This document shows, one piece after another, positions 17,218-22,901 of a stretch of DNA of 64,000 nucleotides. The translations under genes were made by a program, and so were the position numbers. The notes beneath the pieces were generated by a model. It was not told the DNA's origin. It did not search any database and saw only the letters and a list, made by a program, of their open reading frames with translations. The first letter of the stretch is position 1. Every line of letters begins with the position of its first letter. The stretch is from Sandaracinus amylolyticus. Lineage in GTDB: Bacteria; Myxococcota_A; Polyangia; Polyangiales; Sandaracinaceae. The DNA lies in contig NZ_CP070225.1 in assembly GCF_021631985.1 (NCBI RefSeq), positions 4,712,001 through 4,776,000 on the forward strand, given 5' to 3'.

Positions 17218-17634
17218 TCAGCTCTCCAGCGAGTACGTCAGCGTGATGCGCGCGCCGTTCTCGTCGTGCGCGTACACCACGTCACCGCGCAGCCCGCGCA
17301 GCTGACCGGTCCCGCTCCCCGCGACGACGCACCCGAACGCGCGCTGCTTCCCGCCGTCGTCGATCCCGCCGTGCTGCAGCACGAAGGTCCCGCGCCGTCC
17401 CTCCAGCGTTCCGTCCACGAGCTCCGACGCGAGATACCCCGCGCCCCCCTCCCCGCGCGCGGTGAGCACGTCCGCGACGCTCGTGCCCTCGAGCGGCCCG
17501 GAGAACGTCTTGCGCACCACCACGCGCGCCATCTTCGCCCCGCCCTCGCCGGCCTTCGGCTCGTGCGTGACCGTCTCGTCCCACTGCGTGATCGCGAACG
17601 TCGCGACGATCGTCTTCTTCGGCAGCTCCGTCAT
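17218..17634 (-). CDS. DUF3224 domain-containing protein
   Basis: This is a compact 138-aa protein. It matches DUF3224 in its order of segments: ATFAITQWDETV at the start, then VVVRKTFSGPLEGTSVADVL, GAGYLASELVDGTLEGRRGTFVLQHGG, and GSGTGQLRGLRGDVVY. DUF3224 proteins form a small beta-barrel of allene-oxide-cyclase-like shape with unknown role. The ATG at 17634 (MTELPKK) is preferred, because the extension upstream would run into the dispersed repeat. A strong hairpin lies just past its stop. Confidence 0.85.
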   Translation of the reverse strand: MTELPKKTIVATFAITQWDETVTHEPKAGEGGAKMARVVVRKTFSGPLEGTSVADVLTARGEGGAGYLASELVDGTLEGRRGTFVLQHGGIDDGGKQRAFGCVVAGSGTGQLRGLRGDVVYAHDENGARITLTYSLES

Positions 17635-17699
17635 GCGGGAGAACGTATTCGCGCGGCGAGCCGGCGTATCGGACTTTCGCGACAAGGAGAGCCGGAGAG

Positions 17700-17738
17700 A
17701 ATTTCTGAGGAGAGCAGGAGGGTTAGGAAGACCACGAC
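17700..17738 (+). repeat. Dispersed ~38-bp repeat, copy E
   Basis: It has the full core AGCAGGAGGGTTAGGAAGAC with ACGACG after it and AATTTCTGAGGAG before it. It lies 12 kb from copies B to D and 66 bases upstream of the DUF3224 start. This shows the family is dispersed and not only a local duplication. Confidence 0.75.
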
Positions 17739-17810
17739 GCTGCACCCATTGGTCGACGCGAATCCGCGCGCAGCGCTCGCCCGAAGGATCTGGTCCAGGC
17801 CGATCCGCGA

Positions 17811-18025
17811 TGCGTGCTCCTCACGTCCATCTCACACACGCCACCGCACCCATCGCGCTTCGCGCGCTGCGTGCTCCTCACGTCCATCTCACCGCGCTTC
17901 GCGCCACCGCCCGCATCGCGCTCACGCGCGCTGCGTGCTCCTCACGTCCATCTCACCGCGCTTCGCGCCACCGCCCGCATCGCGCTGACGCGCGCTGCGT
18001 GCTCCTCACGCCATCTCACCGCATC
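17811..18025. repeat. 64-bp tandem repeat, about 3.3 copies, in a 706-base gene-free block
   Basis: TGCGTGCTCCTCACG recurs at 17811, 17868, 17932 and 17996 (spacing 57, 64 and 64). Units 2 and 3 are nearly identical; unit 1 is shorter and the last is cut short. Each unit contains the short dyad GCGCTTCGCGC. The block 17635-18340 has no credible gene. It holds, in order, dispersed copy E, this array, a short GCGCGAAGCGCGC-rich stretch (about 18033-18062), about 90 bases of unremarkable sequence, and the long inverted repeat at 18155-18340. Confidence 0.8.
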
Positions 18026-18154
18026 AATTCACGCGCGAAGCGCGCACACGCGCGAAGCGCGGTGCTACACGCGAGCGTCCGAGCCGCGGCGAAGCGCGGA
18101 TCGGTCGCGAGCCTCCCCATCCCACCCAAGCGAGACGGCAGAACCGCGGTACCG

Positions 18155-18340
18155 GGCGGGGGGTGGTGCCTCCGCCGCCCTCGTGCGACGGGGGCTCGCA
18201 GAGGCCGACCACAGACTGATCGAAGCATCGCGGCAGAGCGCAACGCGCGCGCCGCGATGCGCCCACCGATTCCCGACGCTCGCGCCCTTCCGTACAGCAG
18301 CCCGCGAGCACACAGGGCGGCGGAGGCACCACCCCCCGCC
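18155..18340. repeat. 186-bp element closed by 27-bp perfect inverted repeats
   Basis: The left arm is 18155-18181 (starting GGCGGGGGGTGGTGCC) and the right arm is 18314-18340. They are perfect reverse complements over 27 bases. Inside lie two more matched pairs in nested order: GCTCGC (18194-18199) with GCGAGC (18304-18309), and a perfect 10-bp GCATCGCGGC (18225-18234) with 18251-18260. The whole could fold into one extended hairpin. The right arm ends one base before the msrB stop codon. It may be a MITE-like element or a structured RNA; I see no clear target-site duplication. Confidence 0.8.
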
Positions 18341-18895
18341 TCACACCGGAGCGCTACCGACCCGAAACTCCAGACTCACACTGTTGATGCAGTACCTGAG
18401 CCCCGTAGGCGCCGGCCCATCGTCGAACACGTGCCCCTGGTGCCCCCCGCAGCGCGCGCAGTGCACCTCGGTCCGCACCATCCCGTGCGACGCGTCGCGC
18501 TGCTCCTCCACCCGCCCCGGCTCGAGCGGTCGCGTGAAGCTCGGCCACCCCGTTCCCGAGTCGAACTTGTCGCTCGAGCGGAACAGCGGGTTCCCGCATC
18601 CCGCGCAGAAGAACGTCCCCTCGCGATGCTCTTCCCAGAGCGCCCCGGTGAACGCGGGCTCGGTGCCCTGACGACGCAGCACCTCGTACTGCGCGCGCGT
18701 CAGCCTCCGCCTCCACTCCTCGTCGCTCAGCACCAGCCGATCGCCCACCGCGGGCACCGCGCCTACGTACGACACCGGCTGCACCGGCCCCGGCCATTCG
18801 CCCTGCGTCGTCTGCGCGATCGACGAGCCCGAGCACGCGAGCCCGATCGGCGTCGCGAGCAGGATCTGGATCATCGTGCGGCGTCTCATACCCAA
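18341..18895 (-). CDS. msrB: Exported peptide-methionine (R)-S-oxide reductase MsrB
   Basis: This 184-aa protein reduces methionine-R-sulfoxide in proteins. The MsrB domain covers about residues 50-180. It has two zinc CxxC pairs ([20 protein letters not shown]), DSGTGWPSF, and the catalytic Cys in RYCINSVSL. The N-terminus, [23 protein letters not shown], is a signal sequence with twin Arg and a lipobox-like GLAC, so the enzyme likely acts as a periplasmic lipoprotein. It is divergent from the P5C dehydrogenase gene. The stop codon abuts the 186-bp inverted-repeat element. Confidence 0.92.
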
Positions 18896-19034
18896 CCATA
18901 CGAGCCAGGTGCGATCTCAGTTACCGGAGTGCTCGCCTGCACCGGGCCCGCACGGGAGCGTGCGGAGCTGCGGACGGGAGGGCCTGGAGCGGGCGAGCCG
19001 ATTTTGGACACGCCCGCAGTTACTGGAGGATCGA

Positions 19035-20651
<1,617 letters not shown>

Positions 20652-22500: not shown

Positions 22501-22600
22501 CGTGCGGGCCCTCCTGTTCGGCCCGGTGTGATCGCGCACCACGACGCGCGTGCCGTCAACTTCCCGCGTCGCGAGCCCGGCCGAGACTTCCGGGCCGGCC

Positions 22601-22901
22601 CCGACACGTGTCCGCACCGGTCCTGCGACTCGCAGGGAGACACCCGACGCGTGTCCACGCGCATCCTGCGATTCGCAGCACCAGACCCGACGCGTGTCGG
22701 GGGACGCCCTGCGATCTGCGGGAACCCACCGGACACGCGTCCGAGCGCGTCCTGCGATTCCCAGCGAGCCACCCGACACGTGTCCGCACCGGTCCTGCGA
22801 TTCGCAGGGAGCCACCCGACGCGTGTCCGCCGGCGCCCTGCGATGCGCAGGAGCCCACCCGCCACGTGTCCGGGGCGGTCCGTGCGAATCACAGCACCGC
22901 C
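22601..22901. repeat. Seven tandem 43-bp units, each with two palindromes
   Basis: Units begin exactly at 22601, 22644, 22687, 22730, 22773, 22816 and 22859. Each starts CCGACRCGTGTC, which includes the palindrome GACACGTGTC in units 1 and 5. After about 9 variable bases comes CCTGCGATTCGCAG (arms CCTGCG/CGCAGG around ATT in the best copies), then about 8 variable bases. The strict period with drifting sequence suggests selected protein-binding dyads. Units 1 and 5 are the closest pair. The gap 22501-23004 holds only this array and its unremarkable flanks. Confidence 0.88.

Follow-up and report, generated by a model that had tools for sequence, protein, structure and literature searches.

The long palindrome at the 3' end of msrB in Sandaracinus amylolyticus is the centre of a larger element, which extends from about 18032 to about 18356 of the window (the whole stretch of DNA analysed, 64,000 nucleotides), as judged by similarity between copies. 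The copies are, with a probability of about one half, lineage-specific interspersed palindromic repeats that spread ancestrally and now lie as putative 3' hairpins behind the stop codons of adjoining genes.

The repeat and its fold

The palindrome has the perfect 27-bp reverse-complement arms given in the preliminary description (Table 1), and these are nested in a 51-nt pair that is 78% complementary. The 206-nt stretch around it folds with -137 kcal/mol on the + strand (z -8.6) and -148 kcal/mol on the - strand (z -7.9), and on neither strand did any of 200 dinucleotide shuffles fold as well. The right arm was said to end at the msrB stop codon, and so it does: the stop (18341-18343) follows directly. 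Since similarity between copies continues to about 18356, the element goes beyond mere abutting and overlaps the last codons of msrB, whose product carries a SelR domain.

Copies align over about 290 bp, comprising a 26-pair stem and further helices. In the aligned copies the order is left module, hairpin 1, linker, long stem, second stem with inner hairpin, return arm and right end, the last reading CTCACGCCGAAGC. Among 75 copies, the left module is of type A in 39, type B in 20 and type C in 8 (8 could not be assigned). Judged from these sequences, the element is a mosaic in which left modules are exchanged on one core, as in BIMEs.

Table 1. Parts of the element in the window, with neighbouring and related features. 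The last two rows give positions on contig C1 of the same genome (G000); all others are window positions.
Feature	Coordinates	Strand	Basis or remark
Left module, type A (GCGCGAAGCGCGCACACGCGCGAAGCGCGGTGCTAC)	18032..18068	+	Left-flank comparison; other copies have module B or C
Hairpin 1, 14 pairs	18070..18113	+	Copy alignment; 6 pairs with double-sided changes
Conserved, mostly unpaired linker GGCAGAACCGCGGTACCG	18137..18154	+	Alignment A1
Long stem, left arm (the palindrome first reported)	18155..18181	+	17 of 26 pairs with double-sided changes
Inner part: second stem, conserved loop stretches, inner hairpin (about 18226-18259), variable loop	18182..18313	+	
Match of covariance model R1	18176-18321	+	163.5 bits
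Landing position of IS110/IS1111-type IS, unoccupied in this copy	18308..18309	+	Comparison with 9 other copies
Long stem, right arm	18314..18340	+	Perfect complement of left arm
Right end (CTCACRCCGRAGC-like)	18341..18356	+	Overlaps msrB stop and last codons
msrB (SelR domain)	18341..18895	-	A transcript would read directly into the element
IS110/IS1111-type transposase outside the element	G000:C1 2809322-2810656		
IS110/IS1111-type transposase outside the element	G000:C1 8187654-8188987		Split over two frames

Tandem repeats occur nearby. A 64-bp unit is repeated 3.5 times at 17806-18022, immediately to the left of the element; a 16-base stretch of this unit, CTCACGTCCATCTCAC, is present once in the orthologue in the second genome and at no other fetched locus. 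Further off, at 22600-22895, lies an array of about 6 copies of a repeat of about 43 bp.

When the same genome, 10.96 Mb in two contigs, was searched by BLAST, complete or partial copies of the element turned up at no fewer than 39 loci, and a second query, taken from a more distant copy, added at least 6 more, for a total of at least 45. At least 34 loci were found by BLAST in a second genome of the genus (G001); all these locus counts are lower bounds. The BLASTN search that the preliminary description had recommended thus found multiple copies, and the single-copy sequence that it had allowed for can be set aside. Applied to the fetched stretches, nhmmer gave 92 matches, of which the 81 with E<1e-10 were kept (47 in the first genome and 34 in the second, scraps and one double match included), and the 68 that reach the right end were used to count placement. 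The half of the chromosome surrounding coordinate 0 carries 31 of the 45 copies in the first genome.

The covariance model R1, which represents the inner 146 nt, matched 2 of 183 genomes of the order, namely these two. Under stricter filters it matched none of the other 181, one of which is a third genome of the genus in a fragmented assembly. When 38 genomes were searched, all gave some match at E <= 1; outside the two genomes the best had an E-value of 4e-5 over about 40 GC-rich bases, and such matches are taken as chance. A wider spread was considered and rejected: an exact 19-base pattern had five single matches, all from other phyla or classes, which share only 20-25 bases and are not matched by R1, in a contig collection that may omit records near the S. 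amylolyticus genome. IMG/VR held no match to the element.

Pairing was assessed in alignment A1. The first round of BLAST gave 68 copies of at least about 90 nt, and the 49 that cover the query nearly end to end make up the alignment; these 68 copies and the 68 used for placement are different sets, equal in number by coincidence. Over 63 pairs in four helices, 96.2% of the cells of the 49 full copies form standard pairs, and double-sided changes occur in 29 of the 63. None of 500 shuffles matched any of five covariation measures, and sliding the partners by 1-3 columns lowers the paired cells to 33-47%.

The two genomes allow the fold to be followed over time. In 11 pairs of orthologous copies, paired positions differ at 34 of 1072 (about 3%) and other positions of the element, a class that includes a very variable loop, at 209 of 1985 (10.5%; Fisher p 2e-14). 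The twelfth available pair, L004/L065, was excluded, as its sequences appear to have been replaced. When it is included, 36 of 623 positions differ in the outer stem, 8 of 333 in hairpin 1, 7 of 214 in the inner hairpin and 252 of 2163 in the rest. The left flanks of 11 such pairs are 81-96% identical (as aligned by BLAST, coding DNA possibly included), which means that unpaired positions of the element diverge about as fast as the DNA around them. The smaller number of changes at paired positions means that the fold seems to have been held after insertion, though gene conversion between copies could also make the stems alike.

Position behind stop codons

Genes were called by a codon-usage script trained on 17 long open reading frames of the window, with no use of annotation and at a threshold of 25 for the placement counts (15 in an earlier gene call). 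At 55 of the 68 copies that reach the right end, the gene to the right is on the opposite strand, its stop codon facing the element. In 51 of the 68, msrB among them, the distance of that stop from the element's right end is between -16 and +19 nt, and in the remaining four of the 55 it is 31, 51, 51 and 241 nt. The left neighbour stands at widely varying distances in either orientation. In 301 element-free downstream gaps, taken from the window and the fetched loci, the chance that a base is within 20 nt of the stop codon is 0.125; the binomial p for 51 of 68 is 5e-32, orthologous copies being counted in both species. The suggestion, made for the window copy alone, that the element might act on the msrB 3' end is strengthened by finding the same geometry in so many copies. 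One locus of the first genome, L083 (G000:C1 6360952-6367974), carries two copies in opposite orientation 0.8 kb apart, each facing the stop codon of a different gene.

How might this placement have arisen, and what might it do? The fold, its conservation and its place are observed; transcription of the element, an effect on mRNA and a mobiliser are inferred. The repeat may have been spread by some trans-acting activity in the common ancestor of two Sandaracinus-like species. The copies that were kept would then fold, just after the stop codon of the neighbouring gene (msrB in the present case), into a hairpin of great stability, which could protect the mRNA 3' end and separate convergent transcripts. 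Because evolution has preserved the fold, the element probably acts on mRNA ends much as the shorter REP repeats do. Where the stem is within about 15 nt of the stop codon, it might possibly also slow ribosomes, as reported for REPs of E. coli. About 24 of the 55 facing stops are this close, an estimate that takes the distance in the window copy, where the long stem ends 16 nt before the right-end reference point, and applies it to all copies. Work cited in PMC12306157 is described there as finding that REPs lower translation only when no more than 15 nt from the stop codon, and by the same account only about 11% of the E. coli REPs found by RepRanger are so placed; thus the effect on ribosomes is not general even in E. 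coli.

Some observations do not sit easily with putative 3' hairpins. Thirteen of the 68 copies face no stop codon, the gene on the right running in the same direction as the element. Of these, two are 1 nt before the called start, five are at 19-24 nt, five at 37-68 nt and one at 349 nt. Nor was a U-tract terminator found in 17600-19100.

Shared sites, loss and a landing site

Flank BLAST placed 16 of 38 copies of the first genome at the same site in the second, four of them by the left flank alone, and a later comparison of corresponding sites added two more. That comparison took in 30 of the approximately 35 copies without an orthologue and located the corresponding site for 28 (17 of 19 and 11 of 11). 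At two of these sites the element is split by an insertion sequence, at nine there are scraps in the expected place and orientation, and at one there is an inverted piece. At the other 16, BLAST finds nothing at the junction, while inspection by eye shows shorter right-end scraps at four (L094, L105, L110 and L113). In view of the scraps, much of the difference between the two genomes is loss. No clean recent insertion was seen among the corresponding sites, and inspection of 25 printed site pairs revealed no target-site duplication, the left junction not being exactly placeable in most. The profile PF01797, which we take to be the one that catches RAYTs, has no match in the first genome, though as a control it gives matches in 5 of 14 genomes.

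The element has spread at least once in the lineage of these two species. Is it perhaps nothing more than non-autonomous, MITE-like DNA with no function for the host, moved by an agent that reads a folded single strand or a motif at gene ends? Placement at stop codons would then reflect choice or tolerance of targets, and the fold would be kept as the mobiliser's substrate. The preliminary description had compared the palindrome to a MITE, and in part the comparison holds: dispersed copies are confined to two related genomes, and the scraps at corresponding sites show turnover. Also, the outer stem is nearly perfect in Watson-Crick terms with few wobbles (in 63 copies, 1522 Watson-Crick cells, 22 G-T, 4 A-C, 35 other and 55 gapped), and L004 and L065 carry clearly different element sequences at one orthologous site (differing at 13 of 52 positions in the outer stem and at 43 of 178 others), suggesting that a copy was replaced, through conversion or re-insertion. 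The comparison falters, however, at the lack of any duplication visible at the junctions or of a clean insertion, and at the lack of a match to a Y1/RAYT transposase in the genome, the IS110-type transposase belonging to the sequence that interrupts the element. Furthermore, the roughly threefold slower change of paired positions at shared sites is hard to explain for dead copies. On balance, a purely MITE-like element is possible, but rather doubtful.

In a bolder proposal, the element represents a new class of mobile folded nucleic acids aimed at stop codons. Such an element, of about 290 nt with a conserved core and interchangeable left hairpin modules, would insert just after stop codons under the guidance of RNA or a single strand and afterwards be selected to stay folded as a 3' UTR. 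This seems unlikely.

Nine copies, four in the first genome and five in the second, are split at one identical nucleotide and in one orientation, the inserted sequence beginning directly after CCCGCGAG. Both junctions were read in the four copies of the first genome and in one of the second, with AGCAC on the right. The insertion sequence, of about 1747 bp, encodes a Transposase_20 protein (PF02371, E 1e-11) and has 360 nt behind the gene, a non-coding region there being described as the usual IS1111-type layout (PMC11187229). Of the six copies of this insertion sequence in the first genome, one of them in two frames, four interrupt the element; the other two lie in a different palindromic repeat (Table 1), which ends in the same GCGAG as the element's insertion point. 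A second palindromic repeat in the window, at 18930-19011 upstream of an aldehyde dehydrogenase gene (its reverse complement begins TGTCCAAAATCGGCTCG), is related to the landing sites of these last two copies (L121, L122). At three sites the element is intact in one species and split in the other: L012/L052 and L045/L075, matched by both flanks, and L013/L050, matched by the left flank. The motifs CCGCGAG and GCACCC, which match the two sides of the insertion point, are separated by 7 nt within the 360 nt that follow the transposase gene; their order does not fit the IS1111 pattern as described, and no claim is made that they guide the insertion. The one gene-bearing form of the element that was met is this insertion at an internal site.

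Alternative readings and known repeats

The suggestion of a structured RNA made at the outset stands as regards the fold, which is conserved across copies. Perhaps, then, the element is a discrete structured non-coding RNA that is transcribed from the + strand, in antisense to the neighbouring gene's 3' end, and has multiplied like a selfish RNA. Wobbles in the outer stem are biased in this direction (22 G-T against 4 A-C cells), the + strand being antisense to msrB mRNA, and the same bias counts against 3' hairpins, which would act on the strand of the adjoining mRNA. Such an RNA would also agree with the conserved unpaired linker and with the GAA-type loops that hairpin 1 and module A have on the + strand. 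The other helices do not share the bias, however, and some oppose it, with G-T to A-C counts of 24/54 in the second stem, 5/9 in the inner hairpin, 9/29 at its tip and 5/5 in hairpin 1. The wobbles thus point to no single strand of action, the outer stem favouring the + strand and the other helices being opposite or neutral. Moreover, no promoter-like or terminator-like site was found in 17600-19100 (only the sigma-70 consensus was used for promoters), and no Rfam family scores above its gathering cut-off in the window, the best weak match (E 0.41) being far under it. The odds are thus decidedly against an antisense RNA.

It is very improbable that the element is an attC-like recombination site, working as a folded strand behind stop codons as in gene cassettes. 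The variable yet paired stems and the fixed orientation towards the stop codon would fit, and IS1111-type elements are described as also targeting attC sites (PMC11187229), but the length is about 290 bp, the copies are scattered (only 5 of 44 distances between neighbours are below 12 kb) and at least 16 share their flanks in both species, unlike arrayed cassettes. Least credible is an origin by reverse transcription, whether from a retron, as the preliminary description had entertained, from a group II intron or from another element of that kind, intact or as a relic: an outer inverted repeat around hairpins recalls msr-msd and the genome encodes RVT_1 proteins, two of them seemingly retron-like to judge from their sequence, but the element is absent from the 1.5-kb flanks of all five RVT_1 loci (best nhmmer E 0.49) and Rfam yields no match. 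The two retron-like candidates, neither beside a copy, are at G000:C1 3041235-3041867 and 149717-150316.

The closest known relatives in behaviour are the REP and BIME repeats of E. coli, Pseudomonas and Stenotrophomonas (including the SMAG, GTAG and CGTC families), which are likewise multi-copy extragenic palindromes near stop codons, with exchangeable parts, and targets of insertion sequences. REPs are described as 20-40 bp long, lying with one end no more than 20 bp from a stop codon while the distance of the other varies, and as having ends that often supply TAG stop codons (PMC3733652); insertion sequences land in them (PMC1525189), among them ISPa11 of the IS1111 family (PMC11187229). 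The placement of the present element just behind stop codons is of this kind. TAG stops are enriched as well, at 17 of 55 facing genes against 36 of 364 in the background (p 9e-5), although GTAG, as in the REP-type end, is absent there from some copies (seen by eye, uncounted). Membership among the REPs was rejected nonetheless: at about 290 bp the element exceeds the 20-40 bp unit and comprises several helices as well as a conserved linker, and the genome gave no match to the Y1/RAYT transposase.

Other palindromic interspersed repeats, ERIC/IRU, RUP, NEMIS/Correia and RPE, are given as about 105-155 bp and held to be mobile, and for ERIC and NEMIS an action on the stability or processing of mRNA has been reported or proposed (PMC2229807). 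Going by these descriptions, the present element is set apart by its larger size, its several helices with covarying stems and the lack of a visible duplication. The CIR repeats of Caulobacter, an alpha-proteobacterium, are described as interspersed and as having arms joined by a linker (PMC2229807), as here, but are only about 110 bp. Among the matches listed from open-licence publications, titles and the openings of abstracts mention no such repeat in Sandaracinus or another myxobacterium, and in the available text of the S. amylolyticus genome paper the string "palindrom" occurs only in connection with CRISPR. Short palindromic repeats are not unknown in myxobacteria, as Pyxidicoccus fallax appears among the genomes with REP-type repeats predicted by RepRanger (PMC12306157). 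The element is read here as a new, unusually large, mosaic, lineage-specific palindromic repeat adjacent to stop codons, resembling REP, BIME and ERIC sequences in behaviour.

The element also provides a natural target family for an IS110/IS1111-type insertion sequence, some of its sites being occupied and others empty across the two species. Repeats next to stop codons have long been puzzling: they may be parasites tolerated only at harmless sites, or devices of the 3' UTR kept by the cell. Since the two species share some sites and have lost others, and since paired positions change more slowly, choice of target and later selection can be separated experimentally within one genus.
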